From: Crambe crambe
Lineage: Eukaryota; Porifera; Demospongiae; Poecilosclerida; Crambeidae
Length of the DNA stretch: 64,000 bases
Assembly: GCA_963924555.1 (NCBI GenBank)
Contig: OZ004582.1
Span: forward strand, 1,798,001-1,862,000
Reading direction: 5' to 3'
Position 1 is the stretch's first letter. Every line of letters starts with the position of its first letter. The notes beneath the pieces are model-generated. The model ran no database searches, had not been told where the DNA came from, and was given only the letters and a program-made list of their open reading frames with translations. Below, in pieces: positions 46,385 to 55,685 of the stretch. Made by a program: the position numbers and the translations under genes.

Positions 46385-46629
46385 ATAATAATAATAAGGA
46401 TAATAAATATAAGATCGACGCCCCGACTTACTGGCCATAGTCATCAAAATTCTGCTTTGGCCATCTGTTAGAGCGGCACCTAGAGGCTGATCTTTTGCTC
46501 TTAGTTTTGACTAAGGCTCTACTTCACTATTCGATAGCACTCGGCACTAGCCTAGCTTTCTACGCCATTTTGAAGCGCACGTCGTTAGGGGGCGGGATTA
46601 TGGGCGGAGCCACGTAAGCTTAGCTAGGT
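46385..46629. other. interval before the KDZ element
   Basis: Non-coding; it includes GC-richer sequence GGGGGCGGGATTATGGGCGG near 46589. Confidence 0.4.
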
Positions 46630-46636
46630 CTTCAGT

Positions 46637-46720
46637 CACCCAGTTCTCACAGAAATTACCAAGTAATCACCTGGAGGTTCATAGGTCAAATTATCAGGTA
46701 GTACCTCAGTCACATGTGAG
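46637..46720. repeat. left terminal inverted repeat of the KDZ element
   Basis: 84 bp beginning CACCCAGTTCTCACAGAAAT and ending GTACCTCAGTCACATGTGAG. It differs from the right copy at about three positions. Confidence 0.92.
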
Positions 46721-46774
46721 TTCACGGTAAGGATCGTCCAATAAACCTAAATTAGCAAAAATAATTTCAAAATC

Positions 46775-49700
46775 ATGAAGAGGAGGCCCAGGACCATATT
46801 CACTCCTGAGCAAAAGGCTGCTCTGGAGGCAGCCTACTCAGGTGGAGGGATTAAATCTAGTGAAGAGATAGATAAACTTTCCCTGGAACTAAAATTGAGT
46901 CCATCTGTGATCGAAGTGAGTTGGATAGGAAAGCTACTCAGGTCTGATAGCTTGCTAGGTCCTTAGCTATCATCTGTAGAGCGTTTGCATATGATGTCAT
47001 AGCATATAGCAACAGCTTTGCAACCTAGTATTATGTCTGTGAGAAGCTGTGTGCACCAATGGCCACTGTTGCTAGCTAAATTGATGCTGTGCAAATGCTC
47101 TATTCTTGGGAGCCTTGGTTTTACCATACAGTCTCTTGTTCTCAAAGATTGTACTGGGATACACGTTGGTGGATAATTAAGTAAACAGTACTCACAGCAC
47201 CTGTCCTCTCCTCTTACACCACACACGCACACACACACACGAATGAAAATGGGACATCAGACTCGCCAGAGGGTCTGGAAAGCGAGACAAGTGTAATCTT
47301 ACTATTGAAATGAAATCTCCCATAAAACACAGAGGATATAAATTCGTCCTCCAGACCATCTTCATCACTAATCCTAATAGCTTGGGACTAGTTCCCACTC
47401 AGATTAGTGCATACATTTGGGACGTTGTCAAGTTCCTAGAATGCACCTCAAAATAGCCATGAATATAGGTGTTCAGATTAGCGAGGGTTCGGATTAACAG
47501 AATTAGGATTAGTGAGGGTCCACTGTACAATACACAATGCTGAAGGCCCTAGCATTGGAGATTTTAATCAAGCTTCTACGAAGTAGAGGCCAATAATGGG
47601 GTAGCTCCTTTGTATGGACTCAAACTGTACCAAGCATAAAGAGCCTCATGGCTACTCTTAGTCGTATGTAACTCTGGTACAGGAAAATTTTTCCCCTTAG
47701 CTTAAAATGCTTAGATCTTCACTGGTTTGCACTACTTTGGCATGTTGGTATCTATGCTTGTGTAAACTGATACCCTTTATCAAGGTAATATCATGATCAT
47801 TGCATGCAATCAATTGTTGCATGCAATCAATTGTTGCATGCAATCGCTAGGCCATAGTGACCTTTTGGCATTAATACCTTGTGTGGAGATTACCGTTGAC
47901 ATTATTTGCTGCATGTGGTTGGTCACACAAAGTACGTAGGATAAGTGTTGCAACGTTGTAGAATGCATGCAACAGTGAAGCTAGTGCAATGTGCATGCAT
48001 TTTTCTGTGTGATTTGACATTTGACATGATACAATAACCTTTATCCCAATTATTGTTATATGTGTCCCCCATCCGGCATGGTGGGCATGTACCAAACCAA
48101 TATGCCTTTTTCACATAAGCCTGAGGCTACCTTTTGGCTGATCAAAGGACACTTTAAAAGGTTACCACTGCTTACTACAGAGAGTCTCAGGCATATAGTT
48201 TTTAACCTGAAATAGCTCTACTCACTGCCTATTTTGTGCCTATGTGTAAAAACGGAGATTGACTGCCATCATTACAATTTTGGCAGCCAAGGTAGCCATG
48301 GTAATCTAGTGAAAAAAAAAGCCTATTATGTACATACATAGATTGCTTGGTTTACATGTACATCCACTTTGTTTAGAACTGGATAGGGAACAAGCGACAG
48401 AGCAAGACAGGAAGGCCTCCAAGAAAACTCACCAAACCAAATGCATACAATGTTTTTACTGGCGATTTTTATAAATCTGAAGGTAATTTTTTTGGTTTAT
48501 CTTCTTACAATTATTATGAAAAAAGTTTGTTCTTAGAGGGAAAATCTATAGAATCACATGCCACAAAGAATAAGATTGTGGCCGAGAGGTGGCGAGAGCT
48601 GTCGGTATCCGAAAAAGAGCAATACTTTGAACGCAGTAGAGCTTCTTCCTCAGATAATCCAGTTCCAGAGTGTTCCTGGAAGGAAGCATGTAGAATATTG
48701 AGAAATTTTGAATCTAGTGTGAGTATGGATATTCAATCCAATTTCAGTGGGTACTGTGTGTGCACTGACCAGTAATATCCACTAAAAGGGATGGATTGGC
48801 AGGGTTCTACAAATTTTTACTCTATTATGGAACTACATACAAACTCTATCTCATGGGCATCTAACTCTAGTATGTATACAGGGGGGCAATAATTGATCAC
48901 AAGTGTAGTTATACACTTTCTGTGAGCTTGCGTTGAAGTCAGAGAAATTTCCTTCTCCTTCAGCCAAATATTTTGAGGAAGAAACTAACCAAGTAAATGG
49001 AGGCTTAAGCTTGATTAGTGAAGATCCACTATGCCATCATGGAGGCAATAATAATAGTATGGTGCATTTACGTACTCAGGTTTCTTGGGCCGAACAGTGT
49101 GACATACAAACCATGTATGTGGTGTGCCATGGGCAGAACCATTACTGTGGGCACTTCTCTGGGAAAGAAGTACTGGACGCAGCACCCTCATGTGCCTGAA
49201 GAGTTCCTACTAGCAGTGAATGCAGGTACAGTACAGTCTAATACACACGTCCTGTTCAAGTAGCTGCTCCCCATCCCCCCCATCCCCCCCCCCCCCCCCA
49301 CCTCCCACCTTTATCAAGGTTTAGAAAAAACACCCAGAGAGGAATATTTTGTTGAAATTGCACTGTGTAATCAGGCCACCTCTGTATCGAGGACAACTTT
49401 TCTTGTCCCAAGGGATGAATATATAGCATAATGTGTGCTGGAAGAATGCGTACATTGTTTACGTATGTAATGATATCATGTAATTTTTGGTCAATGAATA
49501 GACTTGTAGGGTTACCATAGTGTCGTACCTCAATCTAACCCTATTACCTTAGTAGTGTGAAATTTATCTGACTCCATTTAGTGCACCTAGCGAAATTGCT
49601 ATGCAGTAGACCCTTGGTTATCTGGACCTCAATTATCAATATTTGGATTGGTAAGTGATTCATGGTGTTTTCTTTGCAGTGCATTAAATGGAATTCAATA

Positions 49701-51305
49701 AAGTTTACTCACTATTTCACTCATCCAAGTCTATGCTCACTTTGACTATTCTGTCAAAGACTGTAAATTTAAATGATGAGCAACTGTACAGTGCAACACC
49801 TGTTTTCTTAGAGTAGCTCCTATGGGGTTTCTATGGGGTAGGCCCTTGGATATGTGTTTGCACCTCCCCTTGGAGAGAACTTGAACATGCTGGCATATTG
49901 GATCCTGCCCCCTTAGACCCTGATTTGCCCTCCCCCCCCCCCCCCCCCCCCCCCAATTGTGTATAGTCCTAAAAGAAACCCTGCTCCTACATTAAACTTG
50001 TATTTGCTGCTAGTACGTATGTACCTACTTGTGTATGTATAATAAGAAGGTGGTTTCATTAGGAATCATGATTCTCGTAAATGGGTTTAACCACATGGTC
50101 TTACCTTAGACAATTTGTGTTATACTTCATTTTAGAAAGGTCCAGTATTTCTGAAGAGACTAACAGGGGGCGTGAACATTGGGAAATGCTTCGTAAATCT
50201 GTTCAAAATATTCTTAATTTGAAATATGGTAAGTTGTATTAAGTTTCTCTTAGTAAATTTCACAAGTACTTCCATTTTATATTATAGCGATGGCAGTTGG
50301 AAAACCCAAAGCTAGGGTTCCATACTCCTCCATTTCAGCATTGAACGTGAGGGGTTTTCCGGCTGATCTAAGATTTGGGCCTCCCTCGTCCTTTAGTGAG
50401 CAAAGCTTGAAGTGTATACTCAACAATGCAGATGACATTGAGTTCATTGGTATGTTTGGTAATAAATGCAGTGACCATCTATGTAAACATGTGCCCTTTT
50501 TAAGAGATGTGTAATCAATAGAAAGGCAATCATTTTTAGGGGAGGCATGTCTCTTGTTAAGGGTAAGACCTAAGGATGATGTGAATGTGATGCATTTCGT
50601 GTTATTGGGGCACACTAACTTGTCTGTTGTAGAAGGTTGTGGTTTGGTGCATTGAGGTTGTATCCAGAGGTTGTCTTTATTTAGAAAGTCCTTATTGGAG
50701 GTTGTACTGTACATGTGGATAACCTACATAAATCCCTAAATCTTTTTGTCTGTAGATGTGGACAGTACAGATTCCATTTCAATGCACGCTGATCACTCTT
50801 ATGCTAAACAACTTAAGGACCCCATCAAGCTACCATCAGTAAAACGAAGGAGGATTAGTGCAGCATCTGTTTTGTCTGATACCAGCAATGTTCAGTTCGA
50901 AGAGGTTCTTAAAACTCTGGTGTCGAACAGTTCTGAAGCAAGAGACAGGGGAAAGGCGAAATTGAGAACACTGAAACCAGGATCTAATACTGTTGTGTCG
51001 CACAGTTCTGATAAGTCTAGTTCTGAAGCAAGAGACAGGGGAAAGGCGAAATCGAGAACACTGAAACCAGGATCAAGTGTCCAGGTTCTATTTAATAGCC
51101 ATTCGCTCAAGCAACAGTAATGGAGGGTACCTTGCTGCACGGTAAAGACATACCTAGTGGTTATGTGAAGATCACTATAAACAGTTGCAAGAAGGATATT
51201 CAAGTTCCTCTACAAATAGTGGGAACTTTTGATGAAGAGGATGATGTACTGAGTTCAGGTCTGATTACAGCCTGGAAGCTAGCTGACCTTATCTCTGATC
51301 AATGA
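46775..51305 (+). CDS. transposon-encoded homeobox and HMG-box protein
   Basis: Exon 1 46775-46915 (MKRRPRTIFTPEQKAALEAA ... SLELKLSPSVIE) holds homeodomain helices 1 and 2. After a 1.46-kb intron, exon 2 48377-48482 begins NWIGNKRQSKTGRPPRKLTK, the recognition helix, and goes on to PNAYNVFTGDF. Exon 3 48537-48718 completes an HMG-box-like domain (KIVAERWRELSVSEKEQYFE) and ends CRILRNFESS. Then 50136-50228 (SISEETNRGREHWEMLRKSV), 50288-50449 (KARVPYSSISALNVRGFPAD) and 50756-51117, which has a twice-repeated SEARDRGKAKLRTLKPGS. Another exon probably lies between 48.7 and 50.1 kb to fix the phase. A final block EGTLLHGKDIPSGYVKITIN (51120-51305) is in another frame, so one shift or an unseen splice is likely. 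It presumably binds DNA in the nucleus and assists or regulates transposition; that role is inferred. Confidence 0.75.
47772..47840. repeat. tandem 19-bp repeat
   Basis: Three copies of GCATGCAATCAATTGTT in intron 1 of the homeobox gene; each unit is itself near-palindromic. A short CA run is at 47221-47240. Confidence 0.85.
48780..50130. other. long intron region with poly-C tracts
   Basis: Between HMG exon 3 and the 50136 exon. It contains C runs at 49284-49299 and 49932-49954, a one-ended AGTAGACCCTTGG MITE relative at 49612 and several short frames without family motifs. At 48955-48985 an acceptor-exon-donor pattern (PNILRKKLT) may be a small exon. Confidence 0.4.
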
Positions 51306-51367
51306 AAGGTCATTATTTGTGTGTCGTTATTGTGACATCATCATTCATCTTTCTGATCAAAAGGTCA

Positions 51368-52336
51368 TTACATACTGTCATTCTTTCTGGTCAATGAAAG
51401 GTCATATTCATCTGTATTTAATAATGGAGTTAATGTTTTTGAAGAAATATGGACCATTAAATCTTGAACGCCTAAGGTCTTCTCTACTTGATTTAAGTAT
51501 TCTGTCCAGATCTTCCTTATGCCATCAGCTTCAGGAACTGAATGGACAACAATACCATAGAATATCACTGGTGCAAGTATATTAATGTACCAGAACTGCT
51601 TGATGGTGGGCCTGTCTTAATCAGACTCAATATTGCTTCGTCTTCGCTGCTTAGGATGTTGCTGAACTCCCTACTTCTAATTTCCTGTGATAATGATGTA
51701 TTACATTATAAATTACTTAATACCCATTGCAAGCATACATACCTTTAGAAATTCTTCACGTTCAAACCGTTCTTTTGCCTGCTTGCTAGCTTTTTCCAAA
51801 GCTTGAGCAAATTCTTCATCTTCGCTGCCTTCACTTGACTCATCTGGCATAAACATTCACAACGATGGTAAAGACTGGTGTCATTCTTACCGTCTGAAGC
51901 CTGTGGGAGACTTTTTGGAGCCTGTAGTGAGGGATCCATATCAGTCCCATGCTCCTCTTCCACAGCCTGTGGGGGATCCATTTTCCTACGACCCCTTTCC
52001 ATGAGCCTTGGGAGTCCAGTGTTACGCCTCTTCACAGTCAGTGGGGGGTCCACATCGTCCAAGGTCCTCGGGAGTCCAGTGTTGCGCCTCTCTGCAGGCA
52101 GTGGGGGGTCCACATCATCCAAGGTCCTCGGGAGTCCAGTGTTGTGCCTCTCTGCAGGCAGTGGGGGGTCCACTTAAAATAACTCTTACTGTAATTAGTA
52201 CCTTGACACCAGACACTTGTTCTGTTAGTACACTGGTGGTCTGCAGAGGAAAAGGGACTTCAGGAAGTTCGATTGATTTAGAAAAAAACTTGATACAAGC
52301 CCTGATCTCCTGCTCATAATAACGCTGCTTAATTTT
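51368..52336 (-). CDS. C-terminal extension of KDZ copy 2 or separate gene, with 20-aa repeats
   Basis: Directly after the KDZ stop (TAA, 52337-52339) the same frame stays open for about 70 codons (KQRYYEQEIRACIKFFSKSI, ELPEVPFPLQ). In an overlapping frame a tandem 60-bp repeat encodes DPPLPAERRNTGLPRTLDDV three times (52173-51995), then MERGRRKMDPPQAVEEEHGT. Behind a donor (GACGGTAAGAAT) come an exon DESSEGSEDEEFAQALEKAS (51845-51747) and another beginning EIRSREFSNILSSEDEAILS (51697-51580), then a shifted frame IFYGIVVHSVPEADG. Codon-like structure and splice sites support real exons, but the links to KDZ are not certain. Confidence 0.5.
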
Positions 52337-55300
52337 TTAAAGGGATAGAGCTCCACAATTGAAGTTGGAAGATAAAGTTTGCCGTTGTAAGATAGCATCC
52401 GCTAATAAAGCATGCTGTTGAAGGAAAAACTGAACTACATTGTTCATTTCAGTTTTAATGAGGTCAATTTCTTCAATGGCTCTGTTCTTCCTTGCTAATG
52501 CATTGATTGCATTTATTCTAACAGACCTTGGTACCTCCAGGTATGACTCATCATCAGGAAGAGGAGAAAGCCAAACTGAAGATGATAAATTTGTTACATC
52601 TTCCCACGACAATTGTTCTTCCGGTGTAACAACGCTATTGTACTCAATAAGAAGAGATCTCAGTTTCTTGGAGTCAGTTGTAATCAATCGACACAACCTT
52701 GTTGCCATACTATGACCCTCTGCAACAACAACCGGGTTAAAAGTTATCATTGGTTAATGAACTTATTCTTACCAGCAAACTTAGCCTTAATAGACAACAT
52801 GAACCACCGTTCTCGAGCTATTACACCAAGCTTCTCTAGTAGTTTCCCGCCTTCACTATTAGGCTCTGCATAACATAAATTATTATAATACCTTATCATC
52901 ATAAACACTCATTAAATACCTTGTCTATTCACACATGATTGTTCAGAACTCAACCAATTCTTAATTGTTTCTTCTTCAAAAGATACTATAACAGAAATGA
53001 TAATAGGTACTTTGATGGTATTAATTTTAGCTTGTATGTACCTTGAAATCCAGAGGTCAATTCGAAGAGTTTCTCTTCAGATTCCAGTCTGACCTTTTCA
53101 GCTCTGTTAAGTCGCATACAAAGCAAAGTCTCTAAGAAACAAAATTATTAAAAATTCAGCAATCAATTATCATGACAATCATATTAACTTAAATCCATTG
53201 CAGTAAGCCTAGCAAAGTGAAGGAGAGCATCGGTCAACACATCAATACGGTGTGAGGGCCTCATTTCCTTCGTCATGCGAGAAAACCTTCTCATGAACGA
53301 CCACAATCTCTCACAAACCTCACCATCAGACAAAGCAAATCCTTCTTTATAGCGAGGACTCATTGAGAGCTACATCAATTAGTTCAAACATGACATACGT
53401 ACACCATAAAATCCACACACCTGACAGTCCATTCTGTGACCATGTATAGCAAATTCAAAGAAAGTCAACAAGTCACTTCTGCTCTTTCCCTGAATAATCA
53501 GTTAAGTGATGAGACAACATAGAGGTACATACATTCAAATACTTTGTACCTTCAAATGCTTACTCAGAATGCAAGCTACATCATAGAGAAATAGCACTTT
53601 GGAGTGTTTTTCAGAGCGCTTCTTAATCATTTCAAGAGCATAAACAATATAAGAGATTCTATGATAGTTATAAATAATTACATTATTAACCAAGTCAGTA
53701 ATGATAATATCAATCTGACCTTTCACCATGCCTAAGATTGAATAAACGATAAGGAAACTCATGTCTACAAGAAATTCCAATCACACCAGTCTCATCCAGG
53801 GCTTTATATCTTGATTTTGACCTCAAAAGATTCCCGGCTAGAAATTCACTACACTCCTCAAAAGAGGGGGGGGCCTGACACTCTTTCCAGCACTTTTTTC
53901 CTACACAGTCCGAAGTGGCCATCAATGGCCAAAACAAGTGGACCATCGTTATCACTCTAAGAAAGCTTAGAAAGATGACATTATTCAATTGCATGCAGCA
54001 GTTACCTTTGGGCATGCAGGACATTCAGTTCCATTACTGAGGTCTTTGCACACCACACGAAGATGTCGAAGCTGATTCTTCAGATACCTACGTATGTAGA
54101 GCAAGAGGGTACAGTTTTATGCTACCACCATAGGTATCAAATAACCTGTATTCCTCAAAAGCATTTAGTAATAGTCTGTAAAAATCTATGCGTGTCTTCT
54201 CAATTATCTATCAAAATTATCTCATAGTATCCAGTCACAGACAGGTAACTTTTATAAGTATACCTGCATACTAAGCAACAAAGTGCATTAGTGAAATCTT
54301 TAACAGCAACCTGACATTCCAAAAGTAATGATTCTAGTAGATCCAACAGTCGAAACTGAAATGCAAGCTGTGGACACTGTGGTGTAGCAGCAAAATAGCC
54401 AAGTTTAATTAAGATATCCGGTTCACTAAAGCAGCGGCAAAATTTAAACCTAATTTTGCGTTGTGCACCTATTGTGTTGTCAAAAGGAGGTTAAATTCTA
54501 TATCACTGACATTAATACATACCAAAGCCACCAACACAGGTTAAGTCACGAAAATAAGCTGTGTCACATTGGTGATCCCTAATAAACAGTGTGGAACATA
54601 CACGTCCTCCTGTAAAATTATGTGCACATCATCATGAACTTACACTTTGAAAATCACACTAACCTTCCACAATAAAAGATCATGGAATAAATTAATACTA
54701 CTATGCAATTTCTGCGTGCATTCCATGCATAAATGTGCACCACAGTAGCTATCTGTAAAGAGCAAATTGAGCACCCTTGAGTCAAGGAAGGACTGCAAGA
54801 TTCAATCAATGGATTTAACAATTGTGATCGTATTTTCTCCCATGCTTCAGCAGATTTTGTTTCCCGACACTCATGGGTTCTCTTACATGGAAAGGTGGTA
54901 TCCTACACAAAAACAACCAGGGAGGTCATCATCAGGTGATAAGAAAAAAAATAATATTGGCGTTAAAACACCAGTACCAACTACAGCAAAATTTATCCAG
55001 AAACAGATTATAACAATAGCTCATCATCAAGGACTTCCATAGCCTGGCTGTTCACAGTGTTTGCGTGCATGCGCCAGTTTGCTTTGAAGTTTACTTCTGC
55101 TAGCCCAAAGCAAATTGGTGTATGCATGAACACTGTATACCAGGCTCTTCTGAAGAGCCTGTGAGAACTTTCAGATATCTAGTGTCACACTAGAAACTGT
55201 TCAAAAATATTTAACACTTACCATAGCAAAGTCGTCTCCACAGTCGTCTCCAGCTGAAAAATCTTCATTGCTGTTATTAATAGGAGTTAACACATTCTGT

Positions 55301-55428
55301 TGCCTGCTGGGTCCCCTTGAAGCCACAAGAGGAACTGAAAATCTTGTTATTTTAAGTTTAGAAGTTTTAGAAGATATCAAGTTTAGTTTAACAGTAGCAG
55401 GTCTTCTCTTCTTTCTAATAGCTGACAT
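52337..55428 (-). CDS. KDZ transposase, copy 2 (about 14 exons)
   Basis: Exon 1 55428-55222 (MSAIRKKRRPATVKLNLISS). Then an exon from about 54902 with the Cys cluster GCSICSLQIATV and, after a small deletion or shift, CGAHLCMECTQKLHSSINLF. Further exons: RVCSTLFIRDHQCDTAYFRD; FKFCRCFSEPDILIKLGYFA ending LLLECQVAVKDFTNAL; FYRLLLNAFEEYR; YLKNQLRHLRVVCKDLSNGT with ECPACPK; DGPLVLAIDGHFGLCRKK ... GNLLRSKSRYKALDETGVIG and SCRHEFPYRLFNLRHGER; YALEMIKKRSEKHSKVLFLY with DVACILSKHLK; GKSRSDLLTFFEFAIHGHRM; SPRYKEGFALSDGEVCERLW with SFMRRFSRMTKEMRPSHRID. Four short C-terminal exons lead to TAA at 52337. These motifs define KDZ transposases, which cut and paste by an RNase H-like DDE core. Two local shifts (Cys-cluster exon, CCCCCCCC tract near 53.87 kb) may inactivate it. 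Confidence 0.88.
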
Positions 55429-55542
55429 CACAAAGCCAAGAAACAATAGACAGTACAGCTAGCCACCAGCTAGCTAGCTAGAATTATATTTTTAATATTA
55501 CTTTCGCTCAATTGGGGCATAAGGACGACCCTATGCTAATGC

Positions 55543-55626
55543 CTCACATGTGACTGAGGTACTACCTGACAATTTGACCTATGAACCTCCAGGTGATTAC
55601 CTGGTAATTTCTGTGAGAACCGGGTG
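55543..55626. repeat. right terminal inverted repeat of the KDZ element
   Basis: 84 bp from CTCACATGTGACTGAGGTAC to GTGAGAACCGGGTG; inverse of 46637-46720. Followed by the target duplicate CTTCAGT. Confidence 0.92.
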
Positions 55627-55685
55627 CTTCAGTACGTTTAGCTAGTCAGCTCACTTCACCATGCCATGCACATGTCATTTAGCTA

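Follow-up and report, generated by a model that had tools for sequence, protein, structure and literature searches.

We describe a transposon in a window of 64,000 nucleotides of DNA from the sponge Crambe crambe (C3:1798001-1862000; C1, C3, C5 and so on are contig labels in the genome that we surveyed, 143 Mb in 119 contigs). The window element is a DNA transposon of the KDZ superfamily that has moved recently. The window copy is 8,990 bp long and carries two converging genes between its terminal inverted repeats (TIRs), a KDZ transposase gene on the minus strand and a partner gene on the plus strand. The partner combines a homeodomain, an HMG box and an I-repeat. Probably the element is a Kyakuja-like cut-and-paste transposon to which both genes belong as its own, the second of them encoding a DNA-binding partner of the transposase. 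The ends, the target duplications, several copies and paralogous empty sites are observed, both genes are enclosed by the ends, and two diverged KDZ families retain the partner.

The two TIRs are 84 nt each (46637..46720 on the plus strand and 55543..55626 on the minus strand). They are 96% complementary, and 8822 nt separate them. A target site duplication (TSD), CTTCAGT, flanks them at 46630-46636 and 55627-55633. The termini read CACCC..GGGTG. A 41-nt pattern of the outer end matches the window twice, both times at the TIRs; the number expected from shuffled sequence is 0. The left TIR starts with CACCCAGTTC and differs in this from the other ends of its family, which read CACCCGGTTC. The ends and the duplication thus stand as an earlier sequence-only reading of the window had given them. 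It had also placed the starts of both enclosed genes just inside the TIRs, and we find the partner starting 54 nt and the KDZ gene 114 nt inside.

A genome search with the left TIR hits 7 places, namely three pairs and one single end. The ends coincide in all three pairs, and we saw no copies with differing ends. The second two-ended copy (C5:5536652-5547563) is 10,912 bp long with the TSD TACATTG. The third (C1:9539642-9549981) is 10,340 bp long, lies in the opposite orientation and has the TSD TAAGTTT. The duplication is therefore 7 bp long in 3 of 3 two-ended copies and different in each. The substitution distance among these copies is 0.7-1.0%. The claim that this is a KDZ transposon with a convergent homeodomain-HMG partner is supported by three two-ended copies, three TSDs, paralogous empty sites and a distance of about 1%. 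Two further copies of the window family are partial. On C20 the KDZ-side TIR is present; homeodomain exon 1 and its TIR were not found in the stretch covered, and a protein search nearby was also negative. The fifth KDZ gene copy, at C3:5383843-5385881, is incomplete, and genome searches gave neither TIR nor partner matches there. Two insertions of 637 and 716 bp, at the equivalents of window positions 49051 and 51704, are private to the C5 copy and perhaps represent nested repeats. Some 8 kb away from this copy, at C5:5555981-5557950, there is another KDZ gene, a diverged one.

The window element is inserted into a dispersed repeat (window 46397-46636 and the right flank), which matches at least 38 other places. 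We searched with the joined window flanks and obtained 72 match rows, 38 of which are left-flank matches elsewhere (40 of 1389 candidates were scored). Eight of these 38 repeat copies were fetched. Seven of them carry CTTCAGT once and uninterrupted in the same left context, as a check for empty sites should find; in the eighth the CTTCAGT letters are missing. These empty sites are paralogous, not orthologous. Directly past the target site, the window element's right flank lacks about 86 bp that the repeat copies have. A search for a continuous empty site of the C1 and C5 insertions found none. From the TIRs, the duplications and the transposase type it follows, as for DDE-type elements in general, that the KDZ transposase moves the element by cut-and-paste.

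We built the models of both genes on copy C1. The KDZ transposase gene runs from an ATG at 55428 to a stop at 51713 on the minus strand, with 17 exons in the model and with broken frames in the window copy. The model encodes 1035 amino acids with CxC1/CxC2 and KDZ domains. The KDZ domain (PF18758, residues 321-531) is over the Pfam cut-off with an expectation value (E) of 8.5e-42, and one exon of the window copy itself matches it with E 1.6e-6. Ahead of it lies a CxC1 cysteine cluster (E 5.1e-11 in the C1 model and 4.8e-13 in the window exon). In the window, the exon region of the CxC1/CxC2 cluster is at 54200..54490, that of the KDZ domain at 53710..54024, including a gap private to the window copy at about 53863, and a 60-nt tandem repeat of exon 16, whose length varies among copies, at 51998..52177 (all on the minus strand).

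Among 7996 scored candidates, at least 41 proteins pass E 0.01 as KDZ relatives. The named relatives come from sponges, corals, a hydrozoan, echinoderms, fish, Priapulus and a fungus. Demosponges contribute several of the nearest named ones, and the top match is a metagenome protein. For viral contigs there is one pattern match, unconfirmed. We aligned the element's protein with nine chosen from the 41 relatives, from sponge to fungus. D326, D445 and E500 stay the same in all 10 proteins of this alignment, as do some other residues, and these three would be the catalytic acidic residues.

The partner gene (plus strand, ATG at 46775 to stop at 51305, broken in the window) encodes the homeodomain, the HMG box, the GTF2I-type I-repeat and a conserved C-terminal stretch. 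By the model, exons 1-4 are at 46775-46915, 48377-48482, 48537-48718 and 49080-49225, and exons 5-7 at 50136-50228, 50288-50449 and 50756-51305. The boundary between exons 3 and 4 is the least certain, because two choices score equally. The model of 542 amino acids uses one choice; a three-protein alignment of partners (A1), a search with 340 amino acids and the counts of replacement and silent changes (dN/dS) use the other. In the 542-residue model, the homeodomain covers residues 3-55, an HMG-like stretch 62-118 and the GTF2I repeat 262-328. Exon 1 (46775..46915) encodes helices 1 and 2 of the homeodomain, and a phase-0 intron before NWIG separates them from helix 3 (48377). Helix 3 and the HMG box follow in exons 2-3 (48377..48718), and the I-repeat in exons 5-6 (50136..50449), with a phase-1 intron after LKY. 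Exon 7 holds an in-frame repeat of 90-nt spacing (50929..51074), of which copy C1 has one extra unit.

In the spliced model from copy C1, the homeodomain (E 5.9e-10) and the I-repeat (PF02946, E 2.8e-10) are over their Pfam cut-offs, and the HMG box is below (E 0.006). Searching the PDB with the homeodomain-HMG stretch gives engrailed (1.8e-8) and TFAM (1.8e-5). The I-repeat has 10 PDB matches, all of the TFII-I family (best 4.8e-6). The earlier description as a homeobox/HMG protein hence had the right domains, and the HMG box gains from the TFAM match and from a homologous box in a second family that is over the Pfam cut-off. Yet the description was incomplete, because it missed the I-repeat. 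PF02946 is over the cut-off in three partner-type proteins (E 2.8e-10, 1.8e-7 and 2.3e-9). Each carries one I-repeat stretch, and tandem I-repeats are not seen in any of the three.

With the full partner as query, none of the 7996 candidates scored from the protein set reached E <= 0.01. Alignment A1, whose second row starts with 71 wrong residues (from a dispersed repeat, not exon 1), found four metagenome fragments among 7121 scored (P0042-P0045). The GTF2I match is over the cut-off in P0042 and under it in P0043 and P0044; P0045 matches nothing in Pfam. The partner's C-terminal stretch (GTxLHGxxIPxGY...ITAWK), for which Pfam gave no convincing family, recurs in P0042-P0044. An AlphaFold model of P0042, with three input sequences, has a mean predicted local distance difference test score (pLDDT) of 34.6, too low to be of use.

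The element had been called complete. This is true of its structure but not of its reading frames, since both genes carry frame-breaking indels in the window. Compared to copy C1, the partner gene lacks 2 bp in exon 4 and 4 bp in exon 7, and gaps of 15, 16, 19, 10, 83 plus 1, 15, 25 and 266 nt interrupt the KDZ exons. Among these losses are about 84 nt of KDZ exon 7, including its 3' end, and 266 nt of exon 16, which holds the tandem repeat. Most gaps are private to the window copy among the four aligned copies; a 90-nt gap in partner exon 7 is common to the window, C5 and C20 copies. By local codon alignment, the window copy has 2 frame-breaking indels and 1 stop in the KDZ gene and 2 indels in the partner gene. 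The C5 and C20 copies also have frame-breaking indels, and stops in their KDZ genes. Copy C1 is open through both gene models, partly by construction because the models were built on it. As it stands, the window copy cannot make either protein intact. It could move only with proteins from another copy.

For the KDZ gene of copy C1 against the window, C5 and C20 copies, dN/dS is 0.34, 0.30 and 0.22, and replacement changes would be this few with a binomial probability of 0.03, 0.01 and 0.002. For this test we set the expected replacement share to 0.78 by hand, and the counts are small.

A second, diverged KDZ family has a convergent partner made of the same parts: a homeodomain-like segment, an HMG box and an I-repeat. 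Its partner exons lie beside a KDZ gene, in convergent orientation, on C9, C1, C8 and C16 and at five places on C10. Scanning the genome with PF02946 yielded 9 matches at E <= 0.01, of which 8 are convergent with a KDZ match within about 11 kb. The C5 copy of the window family has a shifted I-repeat frame and was found through a protein search instead. Querying the genome with the second-family partner revealed further linked places. Altogether, partner exons lie near 14 of 31 KDZ loci: 4 belong to the window family and 9 to the second, and one is a remnant at C3:2.75M. These locus counts are our own grouping of genome scans and are lower bounds (in one scan, 66 of 149 candidates were scored). 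Since the copies of one family do not count as independent, the linkage between KDZ gene and partner rests on two families.

The transposases of the two families are about 24-67% identical over aligned pieces, and the partners about 25%, in an alignment whose N-terminus included wrong second-family residues. Both families have the ends CACCCGGTTC, the phase-0 intron before NWIG and the phase-1 I-repeat intron after LKY/TKY. The TIR of the second family is about 90 nt long, and its C16 element (C16:5234763-5244629) has a perfect 7-bp TSD, ACGTAAG. The HMG box and the GTF2I repeat of its partner are over the Pfam cut-offs. Five exons of this partner were compared in four pairs. All 4 pairs have 0 frame-breaking indels and 0 stops; dN/dS is 0.24, 0.32 and 0.39, and one further pair has no changes. 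A first candidate for exon 1 was rejected as a dispersed repeat with about 100 genome matches, and a better exon lies upstream.

Three side observations concern the second family. A short open frame at C9:8531246-8531458 (MCGYSDAK...) is part of a dispersed repeat of about 100 genome matches and lies inside some second-family elements. At C3:3652742-3653133, pieces of the I-repeat and HMG exons lie beside the MCGYSDAK repeat with no KDZ match near, probably a remnant. The five loci on C10 fall within 0.7 Mb (C10:198-893 kb), perhaps through segmental amplification.

The sequence-only reading had raised the question of whether the homeobox gene also exists as a lone host gene. We found no close lone copy, but a far relative stands alone at C20:489339-491065. 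It is a single-copy gene (as a whole-genome query it matches only itself) with the order homeodomain-like, HMG, I-repeat and the same two introns as the partner, to which it is 28% identical. Its HMG_box_2 match is at the cut-off and its GTF2I match has E 2.3e-9. The best PDB match of its I-repeat is GTF2IRD1 (1.1e-7), and one adiponectin chain is among the 10 matches. There is no credible KDZ piece in C20:488500-498400, a stretch that reaches 0.8 kb upstream of the gene, nor did genome scans give one nearby. Open frames of 852 and 234 amino acids on the other strand flank the gene, and we take them as host genes. This relative does not refute the element; it bears on the origin of the partner. 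It is a candidate host gene, possibly the source, a sister or a domesticated descendant of the transposon partner, and possibly a host relative of TFII-I.

We propose the following division of labour. The KDZ transposase would perform cut-and-paste. The partner would bind the long TIRs, with the homeodomain and the I-repeat recognising them and the HMG box bending them, and so would help the transposase to bring the two ends together (synapsis). Because both genes start just inside the TIRs, the partner may also drive the element's promoters.

A number of observations weigh against this reading of the element and its partner. The partner's role is deduced from its domains only, and both gene models are predictions from sequence. 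We rejected the shared TIR motif ATTATCA/TTATCAG as a candidate partner site: its 2 shared 7-mers are reached in 17% of shuffles, which is not beyond chance. At the sensitivity of our scans, 17 of the 31 KDZ loci have no detected partner. In the window family, partner dN/dS is 0.57, 0.48 and 0.74 (C1 against the window, C5 and C20 copies), not clearly below 1; it rests on 8-11 changes per pair, and the binomial chance against the window copy is 0.33. For the KDZ gene against the incomplete copy at C3:5.38M, dN/dS is 0.62, with 4 of 15 exons not compared. In the second family, the flanks of the C10 element (C10:197755-206824) are imperfect, TGTACCA versus ACTACCA, and the left end of the C9 element was not found within the 10.5 kb examined. 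Its homeodomain is under the Pfam cut-off (E 0.068). We therefore base this assignment on its position, the intron and the NWIGN motif. In the PDB, the I-repeat of this family finds 4 matches, weak ones but all of the TFII-I family (best E 0.027). The homeodomain-like exon of the lone C20 gene is under the Pfam cut-off as well (E 0.066).

Some of these points would suit a partner that is a captured host gene, a passenger between the ends with no part in transposition. The loci without a detected partner and the partner's dN/dS in the window family fit this explanation, and so does the lone C20 relative, which has all three kinds of exon and no detected KDZ gene. However, a convergent partner is kept in two KDZ families with transposases as diverged as these, and the second-family partner is free of frame-breaking indels and stops in every pair. 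With no more than 28% identity between the lone gene and the partner, any capture must also be old. We consider a mere passenger unlikely. The partner may instead work outside the transposition complex, regulating the element's transcription or countering its silencing, a role that has been proposed for the TET/JBP genes of fungal KDZ elements. In its accessible part, PMC12730594 has fungal KDZ elements carrying a chromatin gene, the accessible parts of PMC8155576 and PMC3438194 let TFII-I I-repeats act in transcription and DNA binding, and the position of both gene starts just inside the TIRs would suit a regulator. Yet the Pfam scan of the partner gave domains of the DNA-binding type only and no catalytic domain. 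We keep such a regulator as a possibility, if a doubtful one.

That the layout is an artefact of assembly or segmental duplication rather than a product of transposition has next to no probability. The five second-family copies within 0.7 Mb of C10 may well be a segmental duplication. In contrast, the three two-ended copies (window, C5 and C1) occupy separate contigs, differ in their flanks and 7-bp TSDs and occur in both orientations, and the target is empty in other copies of the host repeat. A two-gene KDZ architecture could also be catalogued already, for example in a repeat database entry or in a paper outside the literature covered. Many KDZ proteins are on record as 'uncharacterized' for sponges, corals, hydrozoans, echinoderms and fish. 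Our literature search, which did not cover repeat databases, nevertheless found no paper that pairs KDZ with GTF2I or a KDZ transposase with a homeo- word, and it did not find a KDZ transposon with homeodomain and HMG together. The accessible part of the 2025 KDZ paper (Kojima 2025, PMC12730594) has no mention of HMG or homeo-. An earlier description therefore seems somewhat improbable to us. An accessory gene with homeodomain, HMG box and I-repeat in a KDZ transposon is a kind that we did not find described in print.

The reading of the partner as the transposase's own DNA-binding companion has a parallel. PIF/Harbinger is a two-component DNA transposon with a transposase and a Myb-like DNA-binding accessory protein. 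Our element is like it in having a transposase and a DNA-binding partner between the same ends; the domains of transposase and partner are unrelated. The I-repeat links the element to another system. The TFII-I family of transcription factors, of which the repeat is the hallmark, is tied to Williams-Beuren syndrome, and I-repeats are otherwise not known from invertebrates. Tentatively, the TFII-I repeat could be a DNA-binding module of ancient animal origin, housed in KDZ transposons within a homeodomain-HMG-I-repeat accessory protein. Vertebrate TFII-I genes would then trace back to a transposon gene of this sort, or would share with it an origin in one old host gene captured by the transposons. 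The partner shares its I-repeat with GTF2I, GTF2IRD1 and GTF2IRD2. Unlike TFII-I, which has six I-repeats according to the accessible part of PMC8155576, it has one repeat, plus a homeodomain and an HMG box. I-repeats have been called unique to the GTF2I family (PMC3493543, 2012, accessible part), and our literature search for I-repeats outside the TFII-I family gave nothing useful. Our finding places the I-repeat outside this family and thereby opens the origin of TFII-I to test.

Among KDZ elements, comparison rests on the accessible part of Kojima 2025 (PMC12730594). Zisupton and Dileera share the KDZ domain with our element, and Zisupton also has TIRs. Both have 8-bp TSDs, unlike the 7 bp in all three two-ended copies here. 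Kyakuja has a 7-bp TSD and 5'-CA..TG-3' termini. The element resembles the Kyakuja of Laccaria and other mushrooms in its KDZ transposase, its TSD length, its CA..TG termini and its second, non-transposase gene, which in fungal KDZ elements is a TET/JBP gene carried as cargo. It differs from Laccaria Kyakuja, of which two families are reported without TIRs, in its 84-nt TIRs and in an extra gene that encodes homeodomain, HMG box and I-repeat rather than a dioxygenase; neither of its two protein models has a Pfam match to the TET/JBP dioxygenase. Judged by termini and TSD length, the element appears Kyakuja-like. We keep to this label, rather than plain Kyakuja, because TIRs are present. Because the copies are nearly identical, transposition and TIR binding are open to assay. 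Beside the TET/JBP genes of fungi, the partner adds a second kind of KDZ cargo, kept across two KDZ families in one genome.

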